Source: Bacteroidota bacterium
Lineage (GTDB): Bacteria; Bacteroidota; Bacteroidia; Bacteroidales; VadinHA17
NCBI GenBank assembly: GCA_029547705.1
Contig: JAKPOU010000042.1
Span: 339,271-403,270, forward strand
Length of the DNA stretch: 64,000 nucleotides
Direction of reading: 5' to 3'
This document shows positions 4,194-29,493 of this stretch, piece by piece. The translations under genes were made by a program, and so were the position numbers. Numbering within the stretch: the first letter of the stretch is position 1; every line of letters starts with the position of its first letter. The notes beneath the pieces were generated by a model. The model had not been told where the DNA came from and did not search any database. It was given only the letters and a program-made list of their open reading frames with translations.

Positions 4194-4221
4194 AAAAGCA
4201 CGCTGTGATCAGCGTGCTTTT
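4194..4221 (-). terminator. trp attenuator terminator
   Basis: Read on the minus strand, a perfect 12-bp stem (AAAAGCACGCTG / CAGCGTGCTTTT, arms 4210-4221 and 4194-4205) with a 4-nt loop, followed by TTTGTTTT. It lies between the trp leader peptide and trpB, about 45 nt before the trpB start, so it can only act by stopping transcription before the gene. Confidence 0.92.
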
Positions 4222-4263
4222 CAATTATATCTTTTGTATTTATATAACAGCGTGATTCACAGC
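4202..4263 (-). promoter_or_regulatory. trp antiterminator pairing
   Basis: Minus-strand segment GCTGTGAATCA (4263 down to 4253) can pair with TGATCACAGC (4211 down to 4202), ten base pairs with one bulged A. The second segment contains the terminator loop and the start of its right arm, so this pairing and the terminator exclude each other. The upstream segment begins 6 nt past the leader stop codon. A ribosome that finishes the leader would mask it, while one stalled at the Trp codons would leave it free. Confidence 0.75.
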
Positions 4264-4269
4264 ATCAGT

Positions 4270-4314
4270 TCAGAAGCTGCACCACCACCAGTTATATAAA
4301 TTTCCTTTTCTCAT
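4270..4314 (-). CDS. trpL: Tryptophan leader peptide
   Basis: A 14-codon open frame, MRKGNLYNWWWCSF then TGA, with three consecutive Trp codons (TGG TGG TGG at residues 9-11). It is followed directly by an antiterminator/terminator pair and then by the tryptophan synthase gene trpB. Three Trp codons in a row in so short a peptide, next to an intrinsic terminator in front of trpB, is the signature of ribosome-mediated attenuation. When charged tRNA-Trp is scarce the ribosome stalls at the WWW codons, the antiterminator forms and trpB is transcribed. The peptide itself probably has no other role. The ATG may be almost at the 5' end of the transcript (see the promoter entry). Confidence 0.93.
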   Translation of the reverse strand: MRKGNLYNWWWCSF

Positions 4315-4319
4315 CCCTG

Positions 4320-4354
4320 CAAATCTATATAAAATTATTAATTCAGCGTACAAA
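4320..4354 (-). promoter_or_regulatory. Candidate promoter of trp leader
   Basis: On the minus strand a perfect TAnnTTTG box (TAGATTTG, 4327 down to 4320) lies 5 nt before the leader ATG, with a TTTG at 4354-4351 as a possible -33 element; the 23-nt spacing is long for the Bacteroidota consensus. If this box is used, the leader mRNA would be nearly leaderless. An alternative -7 box is TAATTTTA at 4337-4330, which gives a start distance like that of the other three leaders but has no matching -33 element. Confidence 0.4.
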
Positions 4355-4396
4355 AAGCATAAAAATTTTATTACTGTATCCGTCTGCCGTCCGGAA

Positions 4397-5647
4397 TCAT
4401 TCCCAGATCATTGTTCCGAGCCTCCGCAGTTGTTCAAAGAACAGGGGCCAGGATTTTGCGACACATCCGGAATTTTTTATCAGGATTTTCCCCGAACTTC
4501 CCAGTGCTGCAACTGCAGCCGCCATTGCAATCCGGTGATCGCCGTGTGAACTGACTTCACCGCCCTTTACGGAGCCTCCGCTAACTATCATATTGTCGTC
4601 ACTGGTTTCAATCCTGATGCCGATTCTGCCGAATTCGGTAATCAGGGCCTCGGCCCGGTTACTTTCCTTGTGAATCAGGCGGGACACGCCCTTTATTGTC
4701 GATTTGCCCCTGCAGAATGCTGCCAGGGTTACAAGGGGAGGGAAGAGGTCGGGTGATTCGGTTGCATCAAAAAAGAAGGCTTTGAGTGGTGATTTTCTTA
4801 CTGTTATTGAATTCTCCAGTATTGTTGTCCTTACTCCGGCACTGTCGAGGACATTCAGTATTGCCTTATCGCTCTGCAGGCTGTCGGCCCTGAGACCCTC
4901 AATCCTTATATCGCCGTTTATTGCCCCGGCCACCAGTAGAAATGCACCTCCGCTCCAGTCACCTTCAACCTCGAATTTTCCTGCCTTGTATTTCTGATTC
5001 CCTGGTATCTCAAAACGGCTGTAGCCCGTTTTCAGTATATTGATCCCGAAGCTTTTCAGAACCTGCAGGGTCATGTCAATATAGGGTTTGCTTTTAAGGT
5101 TGTTTACAATTATTATTGAATCCTTTTCAGTTACCGGGAGAGCCATCAGCAGTCCCGTGAGCAGCTGGGAACTCAGGGATCCGTCTATTTCACAGTGTCC
5201 GCCCCTCAGGGGTCCCTGGATGGTGAGAGGAAGGAAGCCTCCCTCACTTTTACATTTCACCCCGAACTGTCTGAGTGCGTCTTCAATTATTGACATCGGC
5301 CTTTTCACGAGGGAACCTGTGCCTGTCATAATTATTTCCTCCACATTCAGGGCCGCAACCGGGGAAAACATCCTTATGGCAAGTCCCGATTCCCCGCAGT
5401 TCAGCAGTTGTTCCCTGATCTTTCCGGCTCCACTGATCCTGAGTATACCGGGTTCCCGGGTCACATCCGCACCCAGTGCCCTGGCAATATTTATTGCTGC
5501 AAGTGAATCGTCACAATCCGAAGGATTCGTTATAATGCTTTCTCCCTTTGCCAGGAGGGCGGCTGCAATGGCACGCTGGGTCATGCTTTTCGAAGGAGGG
5601 GCGGTTACGGATCCGCTTATTTCCGAGGGAACAACAAAGTAATCCAT
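4397..5647 (-). CDS. aroA: 3-phosphoshikimate 1-carboxyvinyltransferase (EPSP synthase)
   Basis: A 416-residue protein that transfers the enolpyruvyl group of PEP to shikimate-3-phosphate, the sixth step of the shikimate pathway, in the cytoplasm. The N-terminal PPSKSMTQRA motif (residues 17-26) supplies the Lys and Arg that bind PEP and shikimate-3-phosphate. The usual GNAGTA-like loop appears as CGESGLAIRMF, a variant that I believe is common in Bacteroidota and archaeal-type enzymes. The C-terminal GDHRIAMA motif and the lysine in CVAKSWP are present. It starts 4 bp after the DAHP synthase/chorismate mutase gene and is the last gene of the Phe/Tyr operon; the trp leader promoter lies just beyond it. 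No aroB, aroC, aroD, aroE or aroK is in the window, so the rest of the pathway must be elsewhere. Confidence 0.95.
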   Translation of the reverse strand: MDYFVVPSEISGSVTAPPSKSMTQRAIAAALLAKGESIITNPSDCDDSLAAINIARALGADVTREPGILRISGAGKIREQLLNCGESGLAIRMFSPVAALNVEEIIMTGTGSLVKRPMSIIEDALRQFGVKCKSEGGFLPLTIQGPLRGGHCEIDGSLSSQLLTGLLMALPVTEKDSIIIVNNLKSKPYIDMTLQVLKSFGINILKTGYSRFEIPGNQKYKAGKFEVEGDWSGGAFLLVAGAINGDIRIEGLRADSLQSDKAILNVLDSAGVRTTILENSITVRKSPLKAFFFDATESPDLFPPLVTLAAFCRGKSTIKGVSRLIHKESNRAEALITEFGRIGIRIETSDDNMIVSGGSVKGGEVSSHGDHRIAMAAAVAALGSSGKILIKNSGCVAKSWPLFFEQLRRLGTMIWE

Positions 5648-5651
5648 CAGC

Positions 5652-6773
5652 TCAGATATTTTTATCCGCTATGTTTATGTCAATGCCATTATTCATGATT
5701 TTCATCTGTTTATTGATGGATTCCTGATGGATGGCCTTGAATATGGAATCTATCATCTCCCTGCTCAATCCTTTAGACAGGCCCTTCGTCATGGCCCTTT
5801 TCACTATTTCATCCCAGCGTGCGCTCTGAAGGATAGTGATATTATTCTCCTTCTTGTAGTGGCCGATCTTTTCCGCCACCTCCATCCTACGTTCGATAAG
5901 ATCAATGAGATGGTCATCAAAAACATCGATCTGCTGCCGTAATTCCCCGAGGATATCAAGCAGCTTCGGATCGGATGTTGAGGGATTGCGGAGTATCAGC
6001 CTGCTGAGGAGCTCGTGAAGCTCACCGGGAGTAATCTGCTGGGCTGAATCGCTAAGCGCCTTTTCAGGCTGGATGTGTGATTCCAGCATTAAACCGTCGA
6101 AGTTGAGGTCGAGCGCTTTTTGTGAAATCTCATGCAGGTACTGCCGGGCTCCGGCAATATGGCTGGGATCACAGATTATCGGAATGTCCGGCATTTTTCT
6201 TCTCAGTTCAATGGGCAGCTGCCAGTTGGGCTGATTCCTGTAAGATGTTTTTTCGTAGGATGAAAATCCGCGGTGTATGGCACCTATCCGTTTTATTCCT
6301 GCCCTGGCTATCCTTTCGATTGCACCTATCCACAGGTCTATGTCCGGGTTGATGGGGTTCTTGATCATTACCATCACGTCAACTCCGTTCAGGGCATTGG
6401 CTATTTCCTGTACGGTAAAGGGATTGACGGATGTACGGGCTCCTATCCACAGCATGTCTATACCATACTTGAGAGTTTCATACACATGCCTCTCGTTTGC
6501 CACCTCACAGCCGACAAGCAGTCCTGTTTCCTCCTTTACGTTCCTGAGCCATTTCAGTGCCGGGGTACCTATACCCTCAAATGAATCGGGCCTGGTCCGG
6601 GGTTTCCATATACCTGCCCTGAAAAGACTTACCTGTTCGATTTTTGCAAGCTGCCTGGCTGTTTCCATAACCTGTTCCTCGGTCTCCGCGCTGCAGGGAC
6701 CCGATATGAGGAAGGGCCTTTTGCTGTAGCCTTTCCATTCTGTGACGGGAATTGTTTCCAGTTTGATTACCAT
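5652..6773 (-). CDS. Bifunctional DAHP synthase / chorismate mutase (type II)
   Basis: A 373-residue fusion of two enzymes. Residues about 1-260 are a type I-beta DAHP synthase, which joins PEP and erythrose-4-phosphate in the first step of aromatic synthesis; SGPCSAE near residue 24, KPRTRPDSFEG, IGARTS and CDPSHIAG are visible. Residues about 275-360 are an AroQ-type helical chorismate mutase (LRQQIDVFDDHLIDLIERR and IGHYKKENN motifs). In related fusions the mutase domain also acts as the feedback sensor for the synthase domain; whether that holds here is inference. It lies downstream of tyrA across a 211-bp gap with short repeats and 4 bp before aroA. The operon therefore controls entry to the pathway as well as its Phe and Tyr branches. 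Confidence 0.95.
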   Translation of the reverse strand: MVIKLETIPVTEWKGYSKRPFLISGPCSAETEEQVMETARQLAKIEQVSLFRAGIWKPRTRPDSFEGIGTPALKWLRNVKEETGLLVGCEVANERHVYETLKYGIDMLWIGARTSVNPFTVQEIANALNGVDVMVMIKNPINPDIDLWIGAIERIARAGIKRIGAIHRGFSSYEKTSYRNQPNWQLPIELRRKMPDIPIICDPSHIAGARQYLHEISQKALDLNFDGLMLESHIQPEKALSDSAQQITPGELHELLSRLILRNPSTSDPKLLDILGELRQQIDVFDDHLIDLIERRMEVAEKIGHYKKENNITILQSARWDEIVKRAMTKGLSKGLSREMIDSIFKAIHQESINKQMKIMNNGIDINIADKNI

Positions 6774-6820
6774 GGTTTTAAAATATAAGTGACTGAAATT
6801 TATTATTCTTATCTGTTCGT

Positions 6821-6920
6821 CTGTCTGAATTCATTTGTCCTGATCTGTCGCACTGTCTGAATTTCATTTATCCTGATCTTTCCGTTCTGTCTGAATTTCA
6901 TTTATCCTGATCTGTCCGGA
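6821..6920. repeat. Three tandem 32-34-bp repeats between tyrA and DAHP synthase gene
   Basis: Three head-to-tail copies: 6821-6852 (32 bp, the most diverged), 6853-6886 and 6887-6920 (34 bp each, differing from each other at about three positions). Each unit contains CTGTCTGAATTTCATTTATC. The array fills half of the only sizeable gap in the Phe/Tyr operon. No leader peptide, strong hairpin or convincing promoter was found in this gap. Confidence 0.85.
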
Positions 6921-6984
6921 CTGCACTGTTCCCCTCTAATCCTGATGATTCCGCGGATTATCAGGCAGGCTTTCATCCGGCCTG

Positions 6985-7830
6985 CTAATTCAGGATTTTC
7001 TGTATTTTATTTGCTTCCTCCATAAGCTGTTTCAGTCCTTCCTTATCCCTGCGGGAGATGAGGGATCTGAAAAGATTCATTTTTTCAATGTATGTGTCTA
7101 TTACTTCAAGAATATATTCTGCGTTTTCCGTAAAGATCGGAGCCCAGGTTTCACCGTTGCTTTTTGCAAGGCGGACGGTACTTTCAAATCCTCCCCCGGC
7201 GAGTGTCATTATGTTTTCTTCCTCCTGTTCCTTTTCAAGCACGCACAGGGCCAGTGAAAAGGAGGTTATATGGGAAATATGGGATATGTATGCCACATGA
7301 ACGTCATGCATTGCTGAATCCATGTAGGTGATCCGCATATTGAGGCTTGTCAGCATTCTTTCCGTGGTTTCCAGCGCATCGGGATCGCTCAGCCCGGCGT
7401 CGCAGATAATCACTATTTTATAGTCAAACAGCCTTCCGATGGCTGCCAGCGGACCAGAATATTCCGTTCCTGCCATCGGATGGACGGCCACATATCTTCC
7501 CCTTGCCGGATGGTTTTTCGCTGCTTCGGCCATATCTGCCTTGGTTGAACCCATGTCGGTCACTATTTTTGAAGTGCCTTCAATGCGGTCAAGTATCCGT
7601 GGCAGAAGGGCACAATTAACGTCAACCGGTGCGCAAAGGATTATCAGATCGCTTTTGTCCACTGCATTCTCCAGGGTATCGGCTTCATCTATCATACCGC
7701 TGAGCAGGGCAATATTCCTGTGCTGGATGTTGTTTTCAACTCCTATTATCCTGTCGGCAAATTCTCTTTTCCGCAGGCTGAGGATCAGTGATCCTCCGAT
7801 TAGACCCGTACCTATTACTGCAATTGTCAT
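6985..7830 (-). CDS. tyrA: Prephenate dehydrogenase
   Basis: A 281-residue NAD(P)-dependent enzyme that oxidatively decarboxylates prephenate to 4-hydroxyphenylpyruvate, the tyrosine branch. The Rossmann motif GTGLIGGS is at residues 7-14. The family's DMGSTKA (about residue 92) and HPMAGTEYSG (about residue 117) blocks follow, then the helical dimerisation domain with HISHITSFSLA. There is no ACT or chorismate mutase extension, so this is the short monofunctional form; the mutase is fused to the DAHP synthase downstream instead. Its ATG overlaps the TGA of the aminotransferase gene (ATGA, 7827-7830), which indicates translational coupling. Confidence 0.95.
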   Translation of the reverse strand: MTIAVIGTGLIGGSLILSLRKREFADRIIGVENNIQHRNIALLSGMIDEADTLENAVDKSDLIILCAPVDVNCALLPRILDRIEGTSKIVTDMGSTKADMAEAAKNHPARGRYVAVHPMAGTEYSGPLAAIGRLFDYKIVIICDAGLSDPDALETTERMLTSLNMRITYMDSAMHDVHVAYISHISHITSFSLALCVLEKEQEEENIMTLAGGGFESTVRLAKSNGETWAPIFTENAEYILEVIDTYIEKMNLFRSLISRRDKEGLKQLMEEANKIQKILN

Positions 7831-8987
7831 TGTTCAGATGTTAATCTTCTTTTTGCTTCATTCAGTGTTTTTTCATCCGCGCACAGCGATATGCGTATGT
7901 ATCTGTCGCCTCCTGATCCGAAAATGAATCCCGGAGTAATGAATACATGGTGCCTGTGAAGGATGTCATCCACGAATTTTTCACAGCTCTCCGTGTTGTC
8001 AGGAATGCGTCCCCATACAAACATGCCTGTCTGCTCCGGGTCGAATCTGCAATTCAGGATATTCATTAATTCTTCAACGATCAGCCGCCTGGAGCTATAG
8101 ACACTGTTTAGGCCTTCGTACCATGAATCGGGGTTTCCCAGTGCTTCGGCGGCAGCTTCCTGCAGTGCACGGAACATTCCCGAATCCATGTTGCTTTTAA
8201 CCTTAAGGATGGTGTTTATATAATCACGGTGACCCGCCACGAGTCCTATCCTCCATCCGGCCATGTTATGGGATTTGCTGAGCGAATTGAGTTCAAGGGC
8301 AATCTCCTTTGCCCCGTCAGCTCCGAGCAGGCTCAGGTAATCATTGTTCAGGATGAAGCTGTAGGGATTGTCATTGCAGAGAAGAATACCGTGTTTTAAT
8401 CCGAACTCCGTCAGCCTGTCAAAAAGCCTGGCTGAACCTTTCGCACCCGTGGGCATGTGAGGATAATTGATCCACATGAGCTTTACCTTTTCAAGATCAC
8501 TGTCCTCGAGCCTTTCAAAATCGGGATGCCATCCATTCTCTCCGGTAAGGTCATAGTATCTAACCTTGCCCCCGGTAAGATTTGTTACGGATGAATAGGT
8601 GGGATATCCCGGGTTTGGCACCAGGACCTCATCGCCGGGATTCACGAATGCCATGCTTATATGCATTATACCCTCCTTGCTGCCCATCAGCGGAAGGATT
8701 TCCGAATCCGGATCAAGTTCAATTCCGAAATATTTCCTGTACCAGTCGGCAAAAGCTTTCCTGAGGGCAGGTATGCCGTTGTAGCTTTGGTAACCGTGTG
8801 AGGAAGGCTTCATGGCCTCCCCGGCAAGTCGGGCAATTGTGTTTTGCGATGGAGGCTGATCAGGGCTTCCGATACCAAGGTTAATGATATCTGCGCCCTC
8901 TTTCCGCATCTGGTCTATCTGCCTCAGCTTCTGCGAGAAATAATACTCCCTGACGCTCTCTGTACGTATTGCCGGATTAACTCTCAT
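7827..8987 (-). CDS. PLP-dependent class I/II aminotransferase (aromatic/prephenate branch)
   Basis: The protein is about 386 residues when started at the ATG at 8987, where AAGGGAG lies 9 nt upstream on the minus strand and the ATG overlaps the end of pheA by 11 bp. The longer frame back to 9053 would run deep into pheA and has no such site. Fold-type I aminotransferase motifs are present: GIGSPDQPP at the N terminus, the NPGYPTY block, DNPYSF, and the PLP lysine in SLSKSHNMAGWRIG. Its position between pheA and tyrA makes transamination of phenylpyruvate and hydroxyphenylpyruvate, or of prephenate, the likely role. Which of these it prefers cannot be read from the sequence; LL-diaminopimelate aminotransferase relatives look similar. 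Confidence 0.9.
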   Translation of the reverse strand: MRVNPAIRTESVREYYFSQKLRQIDQMRKEGADIINLGIGSPDQPPSQNTIARLAGEAMKPSSHGYQSYNGIPALRKAFADWYRKYFGIELDPDSEILPLMGSKEGIMHISMAFVNPGDEVLVPNPGYPTYSSVTNLTGGKVRYYDLTGENGWHPDFERLEDSDLEKVKLMWINYPHMPTGAKGSARLFDRLTEFGLKHGILLCNDNPYSFILNNDYLSLLGADGAKEIALELNSLSKSHNMAGWRIGLVAGHRDYINTILKVKSNMDSGMFRALQEAAAEALGNPDSWYEGLNSVYSSRRLIVEELMNILNCRFDPEQTGMFVWGRIPDNTESCEKFVDDILHRHHVFITPGFIFGSGGDRYIRISLCADEKTLNEAKRRLTSEQ

Positions 8988-9807
8988 ATAATTTATCTCC
9001 CTTGTTATAGATTCCCAGGATTTCCAGTTCCGTGGCATATTCCTGCAGAACATTTTTTATCTGGTTGATATCATGATCCGGATTCAGTTCAAGATCCGCA
9101 TAGAACATATACTCCCAGTCGCCATTCAGCCGGGGCACCGACTGTATCTTTGACAGGTTGATGTCAAGTTCCGCAAGGCGGACCAGTACGGCTGCCAGTG
9201 ATCCCGGCCTGTGGCCCGTACAGAAGCTTACGGAAATCTTGTTCCCTTCTCTGCCTGCCTTGTCTTTTTCGCCTACCAGCAGGAATCTGGTGTAATTCTT
9301 TTTATAGGTCTCGATTCCGGGAGCGATGATTTCCAGGCCATATATCTGTGCAGATATTGCTGAAGAGATAGCAGCAACCCCCATCAGTCTGTTTTCACTG
9401 ATATACCTGGCGCTTCCCGCAGTGTCGTCAGCTTCAATCAGGGTAACATTTTTCAAATGGTTGAGATATGACATGCACTGGTTAAAGGCAATTGGATGTG
9501 AGCGTATTTCCCTGATTGTTTCGAGAGACTGGCCCGGCAGTGCCATCAGGTTCTGCACTATTCTCAGATTGTGTTCCCCGAGTATTTTCATGCCCGATTC
9601 ACGTATCAGGGTATAGTTTGACAAAATGCTTCCGGACCTCGCATTTTCTATGGCAATCATTGCAAAATCCGCCAGTCCTTCCCTGACTGCAATAAGTGTG
9701 AGGTCAAATGTCGTGCAGGGCACTATTTCAATGCTTTCGTTTCTGAAATACTGTCTGGCTGCCACTTCGTGGAAGGATCCCTTTTCTCCCTGGATTGCTG
9801 TTTTCAT
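8977..9807 (-). CDS. pheA: Prephenate dehydratase with ACT domain
   Basis: A 276-residue enzyme that converts prephenate to phenylpyruvate. The dehydratase domain (about residues 1-180) opens with IQGEKGSFHEVAA and ends with the catalytic TRF motif (NYTRFLLVGEK). A C-terminal ACT domain (about residues 188-270) should bind phenylalanine, but the two motifs usually conserved for this, GALV and ESRP, read GSLA and QSVPR, so feedback inhibition could be altered. It is the first structural gene of the Phe/Tyr operon. Its ATG is about 18 nt behind an intrinsic terminator, and a Phe/Tyr-rich leader peptide precedes that, so expression is set by attenuation. Confidence 0.95.
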   Translation of the reverse strand: MKTAIQGEKGSFHEVAARQYFRNESIEIVPCTTFDLTLIAVREGLADFAMIAIENARSGSILSNYTLIRESGMKILGEHNLRIVQNLMALPGQSLETIREIRSHPIAFNQCMSYLNHLKNVTLIEADDTAGSARYISENRLMGVAAISSAISAQIYGLEIIAPGIETYKKNYTRFLLVGEKDKAGREGNKISVSFCTGHRPGSLAAVLVRLAELDINLSKIQSVPRLNGDWEYMFYADLELNPDHDINQIKNVLQEYATELEILGIYNKGDKLYES

Positions 9808-9829
9808 GTCTTATGCATATTTATAAAAA

Positions 9830-9854
9830 AAAGTCCCCGGTTTCCGGGGACTTT
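9830..9854 (-). terminator. phe/tyr attenuator terminator
   Basis: On the minus strand a perfect 11-bp stem (AAAGTCCCCGG / CCGGGGACTTT) with a 3-nt loop runs into a run of eight T residues (9832 down to 9825). It lies 18-25 nt before the pheA ATG. Read on the plus strand there is no gene that it could terminate. Confidence 0.95.
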
Positions 9855-9894
9855 GCTTCATTGGTATTTATTTCATTTTTACACAAAAATCCCC
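9846..9894 (-). promoter_or_regulatory. phe/tyr antiterminator and 1:2 pairing
   Basis: Minus-strand GGGGATTTT (9894-9886), immediately after the leader stop codon, pairs with AAAGTCCCC (9854-9846), the 5' arm of the terminator: nine pairs with one G-U. The overlapping TTTTGTGT just downstream is an exact complement of ACACAAAA inside the leader coding sequence (codons 4-6). A classical 1:2, 2:3, 3:4 set of alternative helices is therefore present. Confidence 0.8.
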
Positions 9895-9957
9895 TTATTC
9901 TTTCAAAAAGTAAAAGAAGAAAAAATAGGAGGTGTTATAGTTTTGTGTATTATTCAT
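9895..9957 (-). CDS. pheL: Phenylalanine/tyrosine leader peptide
   Basis: A 20-residue frame ending in TAA, with residues 11-17 reading YFFFFYF and another Tyr at position 7: five Phe and three Tyr in total. It is followed by competing antiterminator and terminator hairpins and then by pheA. The Phe/Tyr run is the control element: stalling for lack of charged tRNA-Phe or tRNA-Tyr should favour the antiterminator. Since the operon makes both amino acids (pheA and tyrA) plus the first pathway enzyme, a mixed Phe/Tyr sensor fits. There is no clear Shine-Dalgarno sequence, which is usual for this phylum. Confidence 0.93.
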   Translation of the reverse strand: MNNTQNYNTSYFFFFYFLKE

Positions 9958-9976
9958 CAAGTCGCATTTCTGCTGA

Positions 9977-10005
9977 CAAAATTAAACTATTTTTTACAAT
10001 TACAA
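9977..10005 (-). promoter_or_regulatory. Promoter of Phe/Tyr operon
   Basis: The minus strand carries TTG (10005-10003), an 18-nt spacer and TAATTTTG (9984-9977), an exact match to the Bacteroidota TAnnTTTG -7 element. The predicted transcript start is about 16 nt before the leader ATG. The 142 bp between hisIE and the leader ATG hold nothing else that I can support. Confidence 0.75.
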
Positions 10006-10099
10006 GAAAAAAGCAAGAAAAATTAAAAAAGGTCCGGCACGGGGAAAGGTCCCATATAACGCTGGATCCCGGTAAAGGCCGGATTGCAGGAGGAGTAAT

Positions 10100-10699: not shown

Positions 10700-10735
10700 A
10701 TTTAATCTCCTATAAGTTCTCTTTTGCTCTTCCCT

Positions 10736-10846
10736 GTCTTTTACGGATATCAGAAGGACTTGCCGTCTTTTCCTGATGTCAGAAGGTTTTTCCGGTTGTT
10801 TTCCGGATTTCCTTTTTTCCGGATACCGTAAGGTTTTCCGCCTGCC
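10736..10846. repeat. Degenerate ~28-bp tandem repeats between hisF and hisIE
   Basis: Two clear 29-bp copies (10736-10764 and 10765-10793, both GTCTTTT...GATATCAGAAGG-like) are followed by two more decayed units of 26-27 bp rich in TTTTCCGG and CCGGAT. They occupy the middle of the 209-bp gap between hisF and hisIE. No alternative gene or leader peptide was found here. Confidence 0.6.
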
Positions 10847-10908
10847 GGAAAGTATTCCTGTTGTTTTTCAGGATCCTTCATATCCCCTGAAACGAGCCAG
10901 ATATATTA

Positions 10909-15068: not shown

Positions 15069-15087
15069 AAAACAGAACTTTCATGGA

Positions 15088-17247: not shown

Positions 17248-17274
17248 AACCCGCCTGGTATTCTCAGACGGGTT
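17248..17274 (-). terminator. his attenuator terminator
   Basis: The minus strand carries AACCCGTCTG (17274-17265) pairing with CAGGCGGGTT (17257-17248), ten pairs with one G-U and a 7-nt loop, followed by TTTTATTTTTT. It is 17 nt in front of the hisG ATG. Confidence 0.92.
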
Positions 17275-17315
17275 AATTATATCCTGATTACAAAAATCAT
17301 CATTCCTCGCCTGAG
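17263..17315 (-). promoter_or_regulatory. his antiterminator and 1:2 pairing
   Basis: CTCAGGCG (minus strand 17315-17308), one nucleotide past the leader stop, pairs with CGTCTGAG (17270-17263) in the 5' side of the terminator: eight pairs with one G-U. The His codons themselves (ATCATCA) are complementary to TGATGAT a little downstream, giving the 1:2 alternative seen in enteric his leaders. Confidence 0.7.
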
Positions 17316-17316
17316 A

Positions 17317-17358
17317 TCAGGAAAGAAAATGGTGATGATGCAATTTGGAGGTATACAT
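17317..17358 (-). CDS. hisL: Histidine leader peptide
   Basis: A 13-residue frame, MYTSKLHHHHFLS then TGA, with four consecutive His codons (CAT CAT CAC CAT). It is followed by alternative hairpins, the second a terminator with a T-rich tail, and then hisG. This is a textbook his attenuator layout, shorter than the enteric version, which has seven His codons. Stalling at the His run would block the 1:2 helix and let the antiterminator form. Confidence 0.94.
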   Translation of the reverse strand: MYTSKLHHHHFLS

Positions 17359-17375
17359 GGTTGAAAATTGTAGCG

Positions 17376-17405
17376 TAAAAGTAATAATTATTTGATAAAA
17401 TCCAA
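17376..17405 (-). promoter_or_regulatory. Promoter of his operon
   Basis: TTG (minus strand 17405-17403), a 19-nt spacer and TACTTTTA (17383-17376), one base off TAnnTTTG. The predicted start is about 14 nt before the hisL ATG. The remaining 112 bp back to leuB are AT-rich and hold no strong leu-operon terminator. Confidence 0.65.
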
Positions 17406-18579: not shown

Positions 18580-18621
18580 GAGGTTGATATAATTTATTGA
18601 TTGAATAATTCTGCTGCGGAT

Positions 18622-20768: not shown

Positions 20769-20825
20769 GGCAATTATTATTATAGGTATCTGATTTGTTT
20801 TATAGGTTCCCGTATCTGTGTATGG

Positions 20826-22232: not shown

Positions 22233-22310
22233 TTTTATTATCTAAGCAGTCTGTTTTTCCTTAAAACTCAGTGTGCCTGTCATCCGGCGGGCCAAACAGA
22301 TTCCGGATAC

Positions 22311-23804
22311 TTACTTGATTTTTGTTATTGCATCGATAAATGCTTCCACTGAGGCAGTTACAATATCCGTGCTGGTGCCGAAGCCGTAATAGATTTTCTC
22401 GTCGTGTTCAAGCTGTACATGTACTTTTCCGAGATCATCGCTGCCCTGGGTGATTGCCTGTATAAGGAATTCCTCCAGGTGAACTGTTTTGGAAATAAGC
22501 TGTTTCACTGCAGTGAATGCTGCATCCACCGGGCCGTTTCCGACGGATGTGGCAGTGTGGATTTCCCCGTTTATATTCAGACCCACGGTTGCCACCGGGA
22601 TGGCTGATTTGCCACAGATGACCTGGAGATGTTCCAGTTTAACGGATTTATCACCCTGGAAAACCTGCCCTGTCAGTATCCTGATATCCTCGTCGTTGAT
22701 TTCCTTTTTCTTATCTGCAAGAAGAAGGAAGCGGTGGTAGATATCATCGAGTTCCTCCTTGCCATAACTGAAACCGAGCATTTCCAGGCGGTGGTTCAGG
22801 GCGGCCCTTCCGCTGCGTGCGGTAAGAATGATTGAAGATTCCCTCACGCCCACTGACACGGGATCGATGATCTCATAGTTCTCGCGTTTTTTCAGCACTC
22901 CGTCCTGATGTATCCCTGAGGAATGGGCAAAGGCGTTTCTTCCCACTATGGCCTTGTTTGCCTGGACGGGCATGCTCATCAGATTTGATACCAGCCTGCT
23001 GGTTTTGTAGATAAGTGTGGAATTGATGCTGGTTTCCAGGTTCAGGTCGTGGTGGCTCTTTATGATCATTGCCACTTCTTCCAGTGAGGTGTTTCCCGCT
23101 CTTTCCCCTATGCCGTTAATGGTTACCTCAACCTGTCTGGCCCCGTTAAGGACTCCCATCATGGTATTGGCCGTGGCCATTCCGAGATCGTTGTGACAAT
23201 GGGTGGATATGATTGCCTTGTCAATGTTCCTTACATTCTCCTTCAGATATCTTATTTTGCTGCCGTATTCCAGTGGCATGCAATAGCCGGTTGTATCGGG
23301 AATATTCACCACTGTTGCCCCGGCATCAATGACGGCTTCAATGACTCTTGCCAGAAACTCATTTTCACTGCGGCCCGCATCTTCAGCATAGAATTCCACA
23401 TCCTCAACAAATTTCTTCGCGTACTTCACGGCATCGGCAGCCCTTCTGAGTATCTCCTCCGGAGTTGCCTTGATCTTGTAGCGCATATGGTAGTCTGAAA
23501 CACCTATCCCGGTATGGATCCTCTTCTTCTTAGCAAACTGAAGAGATTCTGCTGCCACTTCAATATCCTTTTTTACTGCCCTTGTGAGAGCGCAGATAAC
23601 AGGATTTGATACAGCTTTGGATATCTCAACCACCGAATTGAAATCTCCCGGACTGGAGATCGGAAAACCGGCTTCAAGCACATCAACCCCGAGTTCCTCG
23701 AGGGCTTTGGCTACCTGTATCTTCTCAATGGTGTTCAGCTGGCAACCCGGCACCTGCTCTCCGTCCCTCAGGGTTGTGTCGAAAATGATTACTTTTTCAG
23801 TCAT
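22311..23804 (-). CDS. leuA: 2-isopropylmalate synthase
   Basis: A 497-residue enzyme that condenses 2-oxoisovalerate with acetyl-CoA, the first committed step to leucine. [12 protein letters not shown] near residue 9 and the metal ligands in [14 protein letters not shown] are visible, followed by [15 protein letters not shown] and HSSGIHQDG. The C-terminal domain (about residues 370-497) is the leucine-binding regulatory domain, so feedback inhibition is likely. It begins 24 bp after ilvC with no promoter or terminator between, so leucine genes share the ilv transcript. Confidence 0.95.
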
Positions 23805-23828
23805 ATATTTAATAAAATGTTGGTTTGT

Positions 23829-24878
23829 TTATTTTGTTTCCGGCCGTAATTTCCTCACGGCTGCTCCTGCCTTCCATAATTCCGAATCAGCCATCTCCCT
23901 GAGTTCGCCATCCAGTATTTCCTTGTAATTGGGAACTCCTGTCGATTTCAGTACTCTTTCACATTCCTCGCCGGATTTCACTTTTTCATACAGTTCCCTG
24001 AAAAGCGGAAGGGTGATTTCCCTGAACCGGGGCTTCCAGTCAAGAGCTCCTCTCTGGGCTGTGGCACTGCAGTTTGAATACATCCAGTCCATACCGTTCT
24101 CGTCCACCAGTCGTATAAGGCTCTGGGTCAGTTCTTCCACGGTTTCGTTGAAAGCTTCGGAGGGACTGTGTCCGTTTTCCCTGAATACTTCATACTGGGC
24201 TTCCATTATTCCCGCGAGAGCTCCCATAAGCACGCCGCGTTCACCTGCAAGATCGCTGTATACTTCATTTTCAAAGGTTGTGGGGAAAAGATATCCTGAA
24301 CCTATGGCTATTCCCAGGGCAATTGTACGCTCTTCAGCCTTTCCCGTAAAGTCCTGGAAAACAGAATAGCTTGAGTTGATACCGGTTCCTGCAAGATAAT
24401 TCAGGCGTACGCTTCTGCCTGAGCCTTTTGGCGCAACCATTATCACGTCAACATTTTCCGGAGGAACAACTCCGGTATGGTCCTTGTACGTAACGGAGAA
24501 TCCGTGTGAAAAGTAGAGGGCATCACCTTTTTTCAGGCAGGGCTTGATCTTTGGCCATAATATACGCTGGGCGGCATCCGATACAAGATACTGGATGATG
24601 GTGCCTTTTTCCGCTGCTTCCTCAACCGGAAACAAAGTTTTTCCCGGAACAAATCCATCTTTTACTGCCTTGTCCCAGTCAGCCTTGAATTCAGGTGCCT
24701 GGCCTATGATCACGTTTATACCATTATCTCTCATGTTCAATGCCTGAGCCGGACCCTGAACACCGTATCCGATGACTGCAACAATTTCATCTTTAAGAAT
24801 TTCGCGTGCTTTGGACAAAGGGAATTCTTCTCTTGTAACTACATTCTCAATAACTCCTCCAAAATCAATTTTTGCCAT
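23829..24878 (-). CDS. ilvC: Ketol-acid reductoisomerase
   Basis: A 349-residue enzyme that converts acetolactate or acetohydroxybutyrate to the dihydroxy acids, using NAD(P)H and Mg. The Rossmann loop reads VIGYGVQGPAQALNMRD. The metal-binding domain has NEVYSDLAGERGVL (Asp and Glu ligands) and later the SNCSATAQRGALDW segment. The size and the VIIGQAPEFKADW cofactor loop are of a type I associate with Bacteroidota. It lies 83 bp downstream of ilvN. Confidence 0.94.
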   Translation of the reverse strand: MAKIDFGGVIENVVTREEFPLSKAREILKDEIVAVIGYGVQGPAQALNMRDNGINVIIGQAPEFKADWDKAVKDGFVPGKTLFPVEEAAEKGTIIQYLVSDAAQRILWPKIKPCLKKGDALYFSHGFSVTYKDHTGVVPPENVDVIMVAPKGSGRSVRLNYLAGTGINSSYSVFQDFTGKAEERTIALGIAIGSGYLFPTTFENEVYSDLAGERGVLMGALAGIMEAQYEVFRENGHSPSEAFNETVEELTQSLIRLVDENGMDWMYSNCSATAQRGALDWKPRFREITLPLFRELYEKVKSGEECERVLKSTGVPNYKEILDGELREMADSELWKAGAAVRKLRPETK

Positions 24879-24961
24879 TTTTCAAGATTTTTTAATTAAT
24901 ATTTTAAATTATGCAGTAACCCTTTCCGTTCCCGGGGGGGACAGAAGAGTTATTTTATCAG

Positions 24962-25519
24962 TTAATTAAGGACCGGCTCACCGGGTGTTTTCCGGCTTGC
25001 CTCGTCAAGTTCCTTCAGGTAATGGGTCAGTTCCTTTACCTGCTTTGTTATTGCCACCCTTCCCGACCGTGCAAACTGCAGAACCCCGTATGTCTCCAGT
25101 TTTTCGAGCAGCTCGTTTATCTCGCTCTTGTGGCCTGTCTTTTCAATCACTATATATTCCGGGGAAACAACCAGTATTCTGGCGTTATAGTGTTTAACCA
25201 TCCTTTCCAGAATATCGCCTGTCATAATGCTTTTGGCCGATACCTTGAACAGGGCGATTTCCTGGTAAATTATCTGATCGGACGTGTGTACAAACACTTT
25301 CAGCACCTCAACCAGCTTTTCTATCTGCCGTGAAATCTTGCGGACCATGTCGGGTGTTACCTCAACCACCAGGGTAAGGAGGTGAACGCCTTTTACGGCC
25401 GATTCCGAAGCAGTCAGGCTTTCTATGTTCACCTGTCTCCGTGTCAGGATAATTGTTATCTGGTTGAGAATACCTATATGGTTCTCACTGAAGATTGAAA
25501 TGGTAAATTCCTGTTTCAT
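24962..25519 (-). CDS. ilvN: Acetolactate synthase small (regulatory) subunit
   Basis: A 185-residue protein with an N-terminal ACT domain (ISIFSENHIGILNQITIIL, residues 8-26, then the NIES turn) and a second ferredoxin-like domain. It binds the large subunit IlvB, raises its activity and makes it sensitive to valine. It sits 125 bp downstream of ilvB; that gap holds no leader peptide or hairpin that I could find. Confidence 0.93.
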   Translation of the reverse strand: MKQEFTISIFSENHIGILNQITIILTRRQVNIESLTASESAVKGVHLLTLVVEVTPDMVRKISRQIEKLVEVLKVFVHTSDQIIYQEIALFKVSAKSIMTGDILERMVKHYNARILVVSPEYIVIEKTGHKSEINELLEKLETYGVLQFARSGRVAITKQVKELTHYLKELDEASRKTPGEPVLN

Positions 25520-25644
25520 AAATTTTACTGTTTCATATTTTTTCCGGGGTTTCCCTCGGCTGCCCTGCCCTTACTCAGGTAATCACCCTGATGTCATGGG
25601 CTGCATGCAGTACCGAAGTTTCTCTCCCTTTATTGGTCAGATTT

Positions 25645-27390
25645 TTATCCTTTATAATTAAGTGTTACCTGCGAGACTGAGGCTCCGGGTTCAATCATCG
25701 GCAGAACGTTTCCTTCCTTTTCAATGAAGGTTTCCAGGATGAAGGGGCCTTCTGCCTCGAGCATTTCTTTCAGGGACTCTTCCAGGTCCTCTCTTTCGGT
25801 GATCTTTTTCGCCGGTATGCCGTATGCCGCGGCAATTCCGATAAAATCGGGATTGACCAGTTCGGTGGCAGCGTATCTTTTTTCGAAAAACATATCCTGC
25901 CACTGCCTTACCATTCCGAGGAATTCATTATTGAGAACGACCAGTTTGACAGGCACTTTATACTGAAGTATGGTTCCCAGTTCCTGTATTGTCATCTGGA
26001 AGCCCCCGTCGCCCAGGAATGCAATAACCTCCTTGTCCGGGGCGCCGATTTTCGCACCTATGGCGGCCGGCAGTCCGAAACCCATTGTTCCCATGCCTCC
26101 CGAGGTAACAAAGGAATTGGGATTGCTGAACCTGTAATACCTTGCTGCCGACATCTGGTTCTGGCCCACGTCGGTTACTATTATGGCATCTCCGTTTGTC
26201 ATGTCGGAAACAAGTTTTACTACCTCGCCCATTCTCATGCGGCCGGAAGCCGGTTTTGTTTCCTCTTTAATAACACGGTCATATTCAATATTGTCCAGTA
26301 TCCTGAATTCCCTGATCCATGATTCATAACTGTTTTCCCTTACCATGGCGGTAAGATTCTGCAGGGCTATTTTTGCGTCACTGTGTATTTCGATATCAAC
26401 CTGGATATTCTTGTTTATTTCAGCCTGGTCGATTTCTATATGGATCACCCTGGCTTTCTTTGCATAGTCATTCAGGTTTCCCGTAACACGGTCAGCGAAA
26501 CGCATTCCAATGGCAATAATCAGATCAGCTTCATTTGTCAGCAGGTTGGGGGCATAGTTGCCGTGCATGCCCAGGAATCCCGCGTATTGCCTGTGTCCGG
26601 AGGGAAAAGCCGACAGGCCCAGCAGGGTTACCGCAACCGGTATCCCTGTTTTTTCCGCAAAACGGAGAAGTTCATTTTCCGCCCTCGCGAGAAGCACTCC
26701 ATGACCTGCAAGAATCAGGGGTTTTTGAGCATGGTTTATCATTATCGCTGCCGATTCTATCGCTTTCATGTTAACCGGAACATTGGGATTATAGCTTCTC
26801 AGATAGGTACATTTCTCGTATCTGAACTGAAGCTTGTTAATCTGTGCGTCCTTGGCAATATCGATCAGTACCGGCCCGGGTCTGCCCGTGGTGGCGATAT
26901 AGAATGCTTTCGCCAGGACTCCGGGTATGTCCTGTGCGTTTTTTATCTGGCAGTTCCATTTTGTTATGGGCATGGATACACCCAGTATGTCGGTTTCCTG
27001 AAAAGCATCGGTTCCTATCAGCCCCGACACCACCTGTGCGGTGACAAGGATCATCGGGACGGAATCAAGGAAGGCGTTTGCTATTCCGGTAACAAGATTT
27101 GTGGCTCCGGGTCCCGATGTTGAAAAGCAGACTCCGGGCTTGCCTGTAACCATGGCATATGCCTGTGCAGCATGAGCAGAGCCCTGTTCATGCCTTGTGA
27201 GGATATGCTTAAGCTTGTGGTCGTAATCCATCAGCTTGTCATATACCGGCATGATAGCTCCCCCCGGATATCCGAAAATGGTGTCAACACCCTCTTCGAT
27301 GAGGCATCTCAGCAGAGCCTCTGCTCCGGTAATTTCCTCGGTTCCGTTTATTCTTTCCATTGTCTCCTGGACTTCCTTATCAGTCATCAT
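25645..27390 (-). CDS. ilvB: Acetolactate synthase large (catalytic) subunit
   Basis: A 581-residue thiamine-diphosphate enzyme that makes acetolactate from pyruvate or acetohydroxybutyrate from pyruvate plus 2-oxobutyrate. FGYPGGAIMPVYD and the catalytic Glu of LTRHEQGSAHAA are at the N terminus. The ThDP/Mg motif is GDGGFQMTIQELGT followed after the normal distance by VVLNNEFLGMVRQWQ. FAD-binding and central domains are complete. It lies 77 bp downstream of ilvD. Confidence 0.96.
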   Translation of the reverse strand: MMTDKEVQETMERINGTEEITGAEALLRCLIEEGVDTIFGYPGGAIMPVYDKLMDYDHKLKHILTRHEQGSAHAAQAYAMVTGKPGVCFSTSGPGATNLVTGIANAFLDSVPMILVTAQVVSGLIGTDAFQETDILGVSMPITKWNCQIKNAQDIPGVLAKAFYIATTGRPGPVLIDIAKDAQINKLQFRYEKCTYLRSYNPNVPVNMKAIESAAIMINHAQKPLILAGHGVLLARAENELLRFAEKTGIPVAVTLLGLSAFPSGHRQYAGFLGMHGNYAPNLLTNEADLIIAIGMRFADRVTGNLNDYAKKARVIHIEIDQAEINKNIQVDIEIHSDAKIALQNLTAMVRENSYESWIREFRILDNIEYDRVIKEETKPASGRMRMGEVVKLVSDMTNGDAIIVTDVGQNQMSAARYYRFSNPNSFVTSGGMGTMGFGLPAAIGAKIGAPDKEVIAFLGDGGFQMTIQELGTILQYKVPVKLVVLNNEFLGMVRQWQDMFFEKRYAATELVNPDFIGIAAAYGIPAKKITEREDLEESLKEMLEAEGPFILETFIEKEGNVLPMIEPGASVSQVTLNYKG

Positions 27391-27467
27391 AGTTTTGTCC
27401 TTTTAAAACGAAAAATATTTTACTTTCTAACTTTAGCTTTTTCCAGCTTTCGGGCTCCGGTATGTTT

Positions 27468-29294
27468 TCAGACAATTCTCACTGCTCCCTTATCCGCTGA
27501 GCTCACTATTGAAGCATAAGCCCTCAGTGAGGCGGATATCTTCCTTTCTCTGTTCCGGGGCATGAAGGCTGCATCTTTTCTCGAACACTCTTTTTGCAGT
27601 CTCGATTCTATTTCCTTTACTGTAAGTTCAACATTGATTTTCCTTCCGGGGATGTCTATTGCTATTATATCCCCGTTTTCTATTATGGCAATTGCGCCTC
27701 CGGCTGCCGCCTCGGGAGATGTATGTCCCACCGAAAGGCCCGAGGTGCCTCCCGAAAACCTTCCGTCGGTAATCAGCGCACATTCCCTGCCCAGTCCCCT
27801 TGACTTGAGGAAAGAAGTGGGATACAGCATTTCCTGCATTCCCGGTCCGCCTTTCGGACCTTCATACCTGATCACCACGGCATCTCCTGATTTTACCGTT
27901 CCGTTCAGAATCCCTTCAACGGCATCCTCCTGGGATTCAAAAACAATGGCAGGTCCTCTGAATCTGAGAAGTTCCGTATCGACACCCGCTGTTTTGACAA
28001 TACAGCCGTCCTCAGCTATATTCCCGTATAAAACTGCCAGACCGCCGTCAATACTGTAGGCATTGGCCACACTCCTTATACATCCCTTTTCCCTGTCGGT
28101 GTCAAGTGATTTGTACATACTTTCACCGGATCCCAAAACTATATTTCTTTTCATCGACGGTGCGCTCCTGTACAGATCCTCTGCCCCGGGACCGGCACTG
28201 CCACCGCTTATGTCCCAGTCGTCAAGTGCCTGTCTGAGTGTGGGATAATCAACCCGCTTTACTGAAGTATCAATCAGGTTATTCCTGCTGAGTTCACCCA
28301 TTATTGCCATGATTCCGCCGGCCCTGTTAACATCCTGGACATGGTAGCTTGAGCTGGGGGCAACTTTGCATATGTTGGGGATACGGCGTGAAAGTTCATC
28401 TATATCTTTCATTGTGAAGTCCACTTCTGCTTCCCGGGCTATTGCCAGCAGATGCAGAACGGTGTTCGTGGAGCCTCCCATGGCTATGTCGAGCGCCATG
28501 GCATTCATGAAGGCTTCCCGTGTCGCTATTGAACGCGGAAGCACTGAACCGTCACCTTCAAAATAGTATCTGTCTGCAAGCGAAACGATCAGATTCGCAG
28601 CCTTTTTGATGAGTCTCAGCCGGTTGGCATGAGTAGCCAGAACCGTTCCGTTTCCCGGAAGGGCAAGGCCAAGGGCTTCATTCAGGCAATTCATTGAATT
28701 GGCAGTGAACATTCCCGAGCAGGATCCGCAGGTGGGGCAGGCTGACCTTTCAATTTCCAGGAGTTCTTCATCACTCACATTCTCATCACCGCCGTCAATC
28801 ATTGCATCGATGAGGTCGATCTGCCTGTCTTTGTAAACTCCTGCTTCCATGGGTCCGCCTGAAACGAATACCACCGGGATGTTTAGCCTCATTGCGGCCA
28901 TCATCATGCCGGGAGTTATTTTGTCACAATTGCTTATGCAGATCATTGCGTCCGCACAATGCGCATTGCACATGTACTCAACACTGTCGGCAATCAGTTC
29001 CCTCGACGGAAGGGAGTAGAGCATTCCGGTATGGCCCATTGCTATGCCGTCGTCAATGGCGATGGTGTTGAATTCGGCACCAAAATAGCCATGTTTTTCA
29101 ATTTCCTCTTTCACCATCTGACCGGCTCCGTGCAGGTGAACATGTCCCGGCACAAACTGTGTGAATGAGTTCACTATGGCTATTACCGGTTTGCCGAACT
29201 GGCTTTCCTTCATCCCGTTTGCACGCCAGAGGCTCCGGGCACCGGCCATCGTGCGGCCGGTCATCGTTGTTGAACTTCTGAGTTTATTTCTCAT
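27468..29294 (-). CDS. ilvD: Dihydroxy-acid dehydratase
   Basis: A 608-residue Fe-S dehydratase that makes 2-oxoisovalerate and 2-oxo-3-methylvalerate. Cluster cysteines are visible in [12 protein letters not shown] and [25 protein letters not shown] and the C-terminal [16 protein letters not shown] motif are also present. It is the first structural gene of the nine-gene ilv-leu operon, right behind the branched-chain attenuator, so the whole leucine/isoleucine/valine pathway is placed under that control. Confidence 0.96.
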
Positions 29295-29317
29295 TTCAGA
29301 TAATTTTTGACAAAAAA

Positions 29318-29345
29318 AAGCTTCCCGGACTGATCCGGAAAGCTT
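29318..29345 (-). terminator. ilv-leu attenuator terminator
   Basis: The minus strand carries AAGCTTTCCGGA (29345-29334) and TCCGGGAAGCTT (29329-29318), twelve pairs with one G-U and a 4-nt loop, running into eight T residues. It lies 24 nt in front of the ilvD ATG. Confidence 0.95.
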
Positions 29346-29384
29346 CTGTATATTCTTGTGTTAATACATATTATTCCCGGATCA
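29331..29384 (-). promoter_or_regulatory. ilv-leu antiterminator
   Basis: TGATCCGGGAA (minus strand 29384-29374), which begins with the leader stop codon itself, pairs with TTTCCGGATCA (29341-29331) in the terminator arm and loop: eleven pairs with one G-U. A ribosome at the stop codon must hide it. Confidence 0.8.
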
Positions 29385-29429
29385 TGCGCAGCGCACGAGA
29401 ATAAGAATGAGGGCGATAATATGTATTAA
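29361..29429 (-). promoter_or_regulatory. ilv-leu 1:2 helix inside leader
   Basis: A perfect 14-nt inverted repeat: TTAATACATATTAT in leader codons 5-9 (29429-29416) and ATAATATGTATTAA (29374-29361) after the stop codon. Forming it would compete with the antiterminator segment next to it, and it covers the first Leu/Ile codons. Confidence 0.85.
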
Positions 29430-29441
29430 TCCGGTTCTCAT
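29382..29441 (-). CDS. ilvL: Branched-chain leader peptide
   Basis: A 19-residue frame, MRTGLIHIIALILILVRCA then TGA. Ten of 19 residues are branched-chain: five Ile, four Leu and one Val. It precedes a 1:2 helix, an antiterminator and a terminator in front of ilvD. The mixed Ile/Leu/Val content fits an operon that makes all three amino acids, so shortage of any of these charged tRNAs could stall the ribosome; Ile and Leu should dominate. Confidence 0.93.
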   Translation of the reverse strand: MRTGLIHIIALILILVRCA

Positions 29442-29463
29442 GGTTTCGTTTTTATGAGACTGA

Positions 29464-29493
29464 CAAAAGTACTTATTATTTCAATATATCAAA
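29464..29493 (-). promoter_or_regulatory. Promoter of ilv-leu operon
   Basis: TTTG (minus strand 29493-29490), an 18-nt spacer and TACTTTTG (29471-29464), an exact TAnnTTTG match. The predicted start is about 19 nt before the leader ATG. Confidence 0.8.

Follow-up and report, generated by a model that had tools for sequence, protein, structure and literature searches.

An amino acid biosynthesis island with four leader peptides

The DNA analysed here (the window) is a 64 kb stretch of contig 11 of a Bacteroidota assembly (3.78 Mb, 70 contigs, 92.9% complete). Among the matches listed, the nearest named HisG proteins come from uncultured Bacteroidales or Bacteroidetes assemblies and share up to 81% identity. 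Between 2.8 and 29.3 kb, the minus strand hosts the ilv-leu genes, followed by the his genes, the phe/tyr-aro genes and trpB2. All 23 minus-strand frames of at least 100 amino acids in this interval match enzymes of the four pathways and none matches a regulator. An earlier interpretation made from the letters alone (the sequence-only reading) had stated that no protein regulator lies in between, and this holds for these 23 frames. Each of the four units begins with a short frame rich in the cognate amino acids, which is preceded by a promoter box and followed by an intrinsic terminator. We identified the following features, given unit by unit.

29464 to 29471, minus strand: -7 box TACTTTTG of the ilv-leu unit, matching TAnnTTTG, with predicted +1 at 29459
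29382 to 29441, minus strand (read from 29441 to 29382): Ile/Leu/Val leader peptide MRTGLIHIIALILILVRCA, from a scan for amino-acid-rich frames
29363 to 29388, minus strand: ilv antiterminator 5' arm, overlapping the leader stop codon (duplex -20.6 versus -9.9 in shuffles)
29318 to 29345, minus strand: ilv intrinsic terminator, from folding, 36 nucleotides (nt) past the leader stop codon
17518 to 29294, minus strand: ilv-leu unit, comprising ilvD, ilvB, ilvN, ilvC, leuA, leuC, leuD, a cimA-like gene and leuB, from family matches
17376 to 17383, minus strand: -7 box TACTTTTA of the his unit, with one mismatch to TAnnTTTG and predicted +1 at 17371
17317 to 17358, minus strand (read from 17358 to 17317): His leader peptide MYTSKLHHHHFLS, from the same scan
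17304 to 17317, minus strand: his antiterminator 5' arm ATCTCAGGCGAGGA, from the duplex test and covariation in 59 sequences
17248 to 17274, minus strand: his intrinsic terminator, from folding and covariation, 42 nt past the leader stop codon
10100 to 17231, minus strand: his unit, comprising hisG, hisD, hisC, hisB, hisH, hisA, hisF and hisIE, from family matches
9977 to 9984, minus strand: -7 box TAATTTTG of the phe/tyr unit, matching TAnnTTTG, with predicted +1 at 9972
9895 to 9957, minus strand (read from 9957 to 9895): Phe/Tyr leader peptide MNNTQNYNTSYFFFFYFLKE, from the same scan
9882 to 9895, minus strand: phe antiterminator 5' arm AGGGGATTTTTGTG (duplex -14.2 versus -8.3 in shuffles, rank 0.03)
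9831 to 9853, minus strand: phe intrinsic terminator, from folding, 41 nt past the leader stop codon
4397 to 9807, minus strand: phe/tyr unit, comprising pheA, an aminotransferase gene, tyrA, a DAHP synthase-chorismate mutase gene and aroA, from family matches
4320 to 4327, minus strand: -7 box TAGATTTG of trpB2, matching TAnnTTTG, with predicted +1 at 4315, 1 nt before the leader ATG
4270 to 4314, minus strand (read from 4314 to 4270): Trp leader peptide MRKGNLYNWWWCSF, from the same scan
4253 to 4266, minus strand: trp region 2 GATGCTGTGAATCA, which pairs with the terminator loop and 3' arm (-15.1 versus -8.6 in shuffles, rank 0.01)
4196 to 4219, minus strand: trp intrinsic terminator, from folding, 50 nt past the leader stop codon
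2789 to 4150, minus strand: trpB2, encoding a TrpB-like pyridoxal phosphate enzyme (NF009057), from a family match

The four leader peptides, all encoded on the minus strand, have 14 (trp), 20 (phe), 13 (his) and 19 (ilv) codons. We placed the TAnnTTTG box at -12 to -5 and the transcription start five nt past it, following the rule for Flavobacterium psychrophilum (PMC9723704). From the end of the box to the leader ATG there are 22 nt for ilv, 17 for his, 19 for phe and 5 for trp, and the predicted 5' untranslated regions (UTRs) measure 18, 13, 15 and 1 nt, respectively. These lengths are short, but even the commonest 5' UTR in Bacteroides measures 23 nt (PMC7366714). These values agree with the layout proposed in the sequence-only reading, that is, a promoter, a 5' UTR of about 2 to 19 nt, a leader of 13 to 20 codons, a terminator and the structural genes: the leaders have 13 to 20 codons, the terminators were found and the predicted UTRs range from 1 to 18 nt.

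Two intergenic gaps within the units contain repeats that we noticed by eye. The 211 nt between tyrA and the DAHP synthase gene (6774 to 6984) hold imperfect direct repeats around GATCAGGATAAATGAAATTCAGACAG, and the 209 nt between hisF and hisIE (10700 to 10908) hold repeated CCGGAAAA-like motifs.

Leaders with terminators are specific for the cognate amino acid

On both strands of the window, we looked for frames of 8 to 34 codons that are enriched in any of 15 amino acid groups and have a terminator within the next 140 nt. With cut-offs chosen after the four leaders were known, the scan returned exactly four candidates, which are the four leaders, and none in six shuffled windows; at identical cut-offs, 17 other loci of the same genome (63,990 bases) also gave none. 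The presence of four attenuator candidates in the window, as first proposed, is therefore borne out.

The sequence-only reading had also proposed to search the rest of the genome. Run on these 17 loci, the search added no further units. Leader and terminator were not found at probable thrA (an 822-amino-acid frame), two further aspartokinase genes, the proBA locus, three class-I tRNA-synthetase genes and a Cys/Met-enzyme gene, all named from family and length. Probable thrA is preceded by a hairpin with TTTT and by no Thr leader, and one synthetase gene has an Ile/Leu-rich frame of 13 codons 335 nt upstream, with no terminator. Because these loci have no such leader, we discarded the idea that every amino acid is covered.

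When the same scan was applied to 30 loci per gene, it detected His frames at 23 hisG loci, Phe/Tyr frames at 23 pheA loci, Trp frames at 9 trpB2 and 20 trpE loci, and Ile/Leu/Val frames at 22 ilvD loci. Non-cognate groups were found at trpB2 (Asp/Glu 5, Gly 1, Lys 1) and trpE (Ile/Leu/Val 3, Asn/Gln 2, Lys 1), and one or two times each at the remaining genes. Among candidates with leader and terminator, the cognate amino acid is thus by far the main one before hisG, pheA, ilvD and trpE, and the commonest before trpB2. The same specificity is detectable against dinucleotide shuffles of the 400 nt upstream of each gene. Cognate leaders with terminators exceeded 99% of shuffles at 23 his, 22 phe, 10 trp and 20 ilv loci, out of 30 each with our own genome included, as compared with 0 or 1 of 30 for each of the other 12 amino acid groups.

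Cognate leaders recur before the same genes in related genomes

To describe the extent of the leaders we relied on searches that were order-wide for phe, trp and ilv and phylum-wide for his. The loci are the best 30 per search, our own included, from 58 genomes with hisG, 49 with pheA, 48 with ilvD and 71 with any TrpB. The his phylum set adds 29 further best loci and 40 chosen for family spread (332 of 395 genomes had a match), and its counts exclude genomes with weak matches (E above 1e-60), which probably carry another type of HisG. A leader was counted at p < 0.005 for his and p < 0.02 for the others.

Leaders lie upstream of hisG in 76 of 99 regions, of pheA in 25 of 30, of trpB2 in 14 of 30 and of ilvD in 25 of 30; together with a terminator they occur in 58, 23, 10 and 22 of these regions, respectively. 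In named genomes, a His leader precedes hisG in 66 of 80 regions, 54 of them with a terminator; this set is the best 80 of at least 585 confirmed stretches and may overlap with the unnamed one. Trp leaders precede trpE in 21 of 30 regions, 16 of which have a terminator (for example, L277, L278, L283, L287, L288 and L290), a few of these leaders resting on two or on scattered Trp codons. Phe and Tyr both occur in 23 of the 25 pheA leader runs, which fits because the unit makes both amino acids, and all 25 ilv leaders contain Ile, Leu and Val. Of the 76 his leaders, 46 have an exact box no more than 60 nt from their ATG (3.2 expected by chance); for phe, trp and ilv, this applies to 19 of 25 (1.0), 10 of 14 (0.5) and 21 of 25 leaders (1.2, our own included). 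The recurrence of cognate leaders and terminators before the same genes supports the suggestion that attenuation is a general strategy in this lineage.

The co-location of the four units, which the sequence-only reading had found striking, is real in this genome, but reflects the synteny of one clade. By reading of the genome tables, the four units share one contig and fit within 30 kb in our own genome alone. In the sister genome G112, the same island apparently extends over two contigs, with leuB and hisG about 10.7 kb apart, and five named relatives keep the order ilvB...leuB-his-phe, trpB2 and the ilvD starts lying outside the stretches compared. These five have a Phe/Tyr leader before pheA in all cases and a terminator by rule in three. 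Elsewhere we found some adjacent pairs, for example pheA and ilvD in G038 and pheA and trpB2 in G008. Since the units are mostly apart in other genomes, we rejected co-location as part of the device.

Four of the 179 regions upstream of hisG (L012, L015, L017 and L018) contain two complete His leader and terminator units in tandem. An exact -7 box within 60 nt was found at none of these eight leaders, and the antiterminator passes the shuffle test at 0.05 in three of the eight. The tandem attenuators of Salmonella mgtCBR (PMC3641672) likewise have two short open reading frames (ORFs) in one leader region; the relatives have two complete units in series.

Competing terminator and antiterminator pairings in the leaders

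We aligned 59 His leaders out of 179 from Bacteroidales, Flavobacteriales and others, picked for a shared CCG[CT][CT]TGA segment and a terminator. In this alignment, the segment CGTCTGAG has its pairing partner CTCAGGCG upstream, and the segment CCCGTCTG, which overlaps it, has its partner CAGACGGG downstream. Terminator and antiterminator hence compete for one segment, and both pairings covary. Cells changed on both sides number 27 in the terminator (7.1 in shuffles), where the pairing is partly selected because the sequences were picked for having a terminator, and 16 in the antiterminator (5.3 in shuffles), whose arm is unselected. Sliding the partner by one to three columns lowers pairing from 97% and 92% to 21 to 49%, and a triple G-C-G present in 35 sequences is replaced by A-T-A in seven.

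We searched 395 genomes of the phylum with a covariance model built from the His leaders, and 74 had a match at an E value of at most 0.01. As judged by reading of the tables, every one of the 48 matches with E no higher than 1.3e-4 is immediately upstream of hisG and in its orientation, with 16 of these 48 genomes having contributed sequences to the model. The matches below the best 48 are mostly away from hisG; in our own genome, the second match (E 0.0038) is the ilv leader.

In the window, the RNA at or adjoining the stop codon can form an antiterminator duplex with the 5' arm of the terminator in the ilv, his and phe leaders (-20.6, -17.6 and -14.2 kcal/mol, compared with -9.9, -9.2 and -8.3 in shuffles; ranks 0.000, 0.005 and 0.03). 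In the upstream regions with leader and terminator, the antiterminator beats 95% of shuffles in 42 of 58 his, 16 of 23 phe, 5 of 10 trp and 16 of 22 ilv cases. A narrower search, from the codon before the stop onward, gave a good result for ilv (16 of 22) and weak ones for the other three (his, 12 of 58; phe, 6 of 23; trp, 2 of 10). Because the arms of relatives are frequently located within the 3' part of the leader ORF, the search was extended to begin 30 nt ahead of the stop codon.

The position of the arm differs between classes. For his, the median distance from the His run to the start of the arm is 11 nt, with 27 of the 42 cases with an antiterminator falling between 6 and 13 nt, and the position of the arm relative to the stop codon spreads over 28 nt. 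The distance past the sensing codons is 8 to 28 nt for phe, 14 to 20 nt for trp and a scattered 4 to 41 nt for ilv, where 13 of 16 arms start 3 to 8 nt before the first nt after the stop codon. The antiterminator had been described as lying within 0 to 6 nt of the stop codon; this is roughly correct in the window and for ilv, but the his relatives keep their distance to the sensing codons instead.

We modelled the switch in nascent RNA, with the transcript ending two nt into the 3' arm of the terminator and the ribosome either on the sensing codons or at the stop codon. For his, 38 of 58 leaders have the 5' arm sequestered upon stalling and free at the stop (8.9 expected with shuffled spacers); the same is true of 17 of 23 leaders for phe (4.6), 7 of 10 for trp (2.1) and 17 of 22 for ilv (3.6). 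The his, phe and ilv leaders of the window are among those that switch.

Probable ribosome-mediated attenuation and its alternatives

The leaders, promoter boxes, terminators, competing pairings, his covariation and recurrence in relatives described above make it very probable, on sequence evidence, that each of the four units is under its own ribosome-mediated transcription attenuator. That the units are regulated in this way in the cell, in which kinetic order the RNA folds and what the leader-ORF hairpin (1:2) does are inferred; we recognised this hairpin by eye in the predicted folds of all four leaders. Transcription would start 1 to 18 nt upstream of the leader ORF, which has 13 to 20 codons. 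When the cognate aminoacyl-tRNA is scarce (His; Phe and Tyr; Trp; Ile, Leu and Val), the first ribosome would stall on the sensing codons, and the RNA beyond its footprint could pair with the nascent terminator hairpin, so that the polymerase would read through. The partner of this pairing would be the 5' arm of the terminator in ilv, his and phe, and the loop and 3' arm in trp. With ample amino acid, the ribosome would reach the stop codon and cover the arm, and the terminator would form. In an untranslated leader, the 1:2 hairpin may take up the arm, again allowing the terminator to form.

Several observations weigh against this interpretation. At the cut-offs used, a leader-terminator pair is missing from 41 of the 99 regions for his, 7 of 30 for phe, 20 of 30 for trp and 8 of 30 for ilv. 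In the His alignment, pairs changed on both sides do not exceed shuffles (terminator 4 versus 3.3, antiterminator 3 versus 2.0), so the covariation signal sits in cells and score, which relatedness can inflate; the 1:2 helix has 84.3% of its cells paired and covariation little above shuffles. The trp leader of the window pairs with the 5' arm of its terminator at chance level (rank 0.27, or 0.11 in a second test) and does not switch in the 5'-arm nascent-RNA test, and the pairing of its region 2 with the terminator loop and 3' arm (-15.1 versus -8.6, rank 0.01) was sought only after the 5'-arm test had failed. When folding was computed at full equilibrium, a clear switch was seen in 4 of 58 leaders for his, 4 of 23 for phe, 2 of 10 for trp and 8 of 22 for ilv, and stalling of the ribosome usually does not keep the complete terminator from prevailing. 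As a test of switching, equilibrium folding mostly failed and was replaced by the nascent-RNA test; the model therefore needs co-transcriptional folding. The order of synthesis and folding matters in known attenuators. Finally, with no ribosome the 5' arm of the terminator is still largely sequestered in the phe (0.89) and ilv (0.52) leaders of the window, so these two fit poorly with termination of an untranslated leader.

The four attenuators could instead be serial gates on one or two long transcripts, also handling read-through from upstream, which we consider possible but rather doubtful. They do lie in tight series on one strand. A search for terminators after leuB, hisIE and trpB2 found nothing, folding after aroA gave nothing terminator-like, and in the sister genome G112 trpB2 directly follows the DAHP synthase gene of the phe/tyr unit, with no leader in front. 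However, each leader has its own -7 box, as do most leaders in relatives, where the units are mostly apart, and folding returned a long-loop hairpin with a T-run after hisIE. The statement that the attenuators head all four transcription units is overstated: each leader has its own box and terminator, but independent transcription of the units is presumptive, as no clear terminator was found after leuB, hisIE, aroA or trpB2.

For the Trp leader alone, decay or lack of function is conceivable though improbable, the leader being then a relic of a lost trp operon or a recent gain. What the sequence-only reading called a trp unit is a single gene of the TrpB2 type, not an operon with a trpE-type gene. 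In our own assembly (about 93% complete), we found no Chorismate_bind match that would indicate a TrpE, PabB or MenF-type protein, the family being detected in 14 of 14 controls, and no second TrpB, so that trpB2 is the only TrpB. At this completeness, a trp operon may be missing with its contig, or the organism may salvage indole. Given these two absences, Trp is perhaps made from imported indole, and the attenuator would then govern salvage. The leaderless trpB2 of the sister genome and the 5'-arm result of the window leader also speak for decay. Against it, the leader gives a full-length match to the Rfam Trp_leader model (RF00513, 4293 to 4190, 44.3 bits with a cut-off of 41), its region 2 pairs with the terminator as reported above, and a Trp leader and terminator occur at 9 of 29 other trpB2 loci. 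The Bacteroid-trp model (RF01692) scores 34.7 bits at the Trp leader, below its cut-off of 49.

One relative has a trpB2 match (G117:C175:79538-80878) that adjoins hisG and carries three in-frame stops, an apparent pseudogene.

Alternative structures alone are no proof of sensing by a ribosome, and a ligand-binding RNA, a T-box or a protein might choose the fold, with the peptide being incidental. We regard this as very unlikely, as no riboswitch or T-box reaches the Rfam cut-offs in the window or in two sets of 20 loci (relatives and our own), the identity of the sensing codons follows the product of the operon in each class, and the his arm keeps the spacing from the His run that a stalled ribosome would require. 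Lastly, it is hardly credible that the terminators merely insulate neighbours and the amino-acid-rich frames arose by chance: genes are often separated by terminators, AT-rich spacers contain many short frames and the hairpin before probable thrA has no Thr leader, but cognate leaders occur in 227 of 299 upstream regions (140 of 189, 66 of 80 and 21 of 30) with specificity controls, the competing arms covary, and shuffled windows and 64 kb of the same genome gave no candidate.

Part of the leader peptides may be near-leaderless

An exact box is present at 63 of 69 named His leaders, and the distances from box to ATG have two peaks. They are 4 to 10 nt in 24 leaders (0.65 expected among 69), 11 nt in one and 16 to 31 nt in 38, with 36 of these 38 at 16 to 21 nt. 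When several boxes or in-frame starts were present, a distance near 12 was preferred, and two of the 24 (L249 and L268) use an internal ATG. The predicted UTR in the short-distance group is 0 to 6 nt (for example, L249, L261, L267, L268, L272, L232, L236 and L248). Leader peptides are thus predicted to start at the 5' end of the transcript, or at most 6 nt from it, in His leaders of the Algoriphagus, Niastella and Cyclobacterium type and in the trp leader of the window.

These data lead us to propose, with the balance about even, that Bacteroidota have an attenuation system of their own that extends over the phylum, is ancestral at least for his, suits initiation without Shine-Dalgarno sites and uses leader peptides that are partly near-leaderless. 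If this is true, a leaderless leader peptide would let the ribosome load as soon as the AUG emerges, which would be a new way to guarantee coupling.

Relation to known attenuators and significance

The enterobacterial attenuators of trp, his and pheA (RF00513, RF00514 and RF01859) and of ilv share with those described here a leader with cognate codons, a competing antiterminator, a terminator and the genes. The leaders of the window differ from them in the Bacteroidota -7 box, the predicted 5' UTR of 1 to 18 nt and the single Phe-and-Tyr leader for a joint pheA-tyrA-aro unit. The His_leader model (RF00514) has no match up to E 5 between 4100 and 29600 of the window and none at its cut-off in 11 his loci (our own and relatives), and the Phe_leader model (RF01859) scores 48.5 bits at the window Phe leader (E 1.9e-5), below its cut-off of 55. 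The expectation that no leader would appear in a standard annotation fails for one of the four, the Trp leader, which passes the cut-off of RF00513 and would be annotated by Rfam.

Predictions of such attenuators in some Bacteroidetes, which the sequence-only reading had mentioned, do exist. RF01692 is a Trp leader RNA of Bacteroidetes that Rfam names a peptide leader (Weinberg 2010, PMC2864571); it covers only trp and reaches its cut-off in one relative, L287, of 11 trpE loci scanned. In F. psychrophilum, a member of the Flavobacteriaceae and hence of the same phylum, structured 5' regions of the same genes, hisG and pheA, have mapped transcript starts and no Rfam match, and 'strong clues' for leader-peptide attenuation before amino acid operons were reported; leader families, competing arms and extent in the phylum are not described in the part of that text considered here (PMC9723704). 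A search of the full-text literature, with subscription papers outside its scope, found no survey of such leaders across Bacteroidota. The kind of device is therefore already known, through Bacteroid-trp and the F. psychrophilum hisG and pheA regions. What is new is its extent, the joint sensing of Phe and Tyr and, for part of the phylum, leader peptides that are predicted to be near-leaderless.

According to a 2013 survey based on Rfam models, gamma-proteobacteria may be where amino acid attenuators originated, and transfers have been very few (PMC3766115), and the text of a 2010 survey places leader-peptide systems only in Proteobacteria, Actinobacteria and a new Firmicutes case of its own (PMC2965389). 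In the present data, many Bacteroidota families have the device upstream of hisG, and it is found across one order upstream of pheA, trpB2, trpE and ilvD. These data yield an alignment and a model for a family of His leaders that Rfam does not detect, provide a test case for attenuation without Shine-Dalgarno sites and offer a reading of how these bacteria may sense their supply of amino acids.

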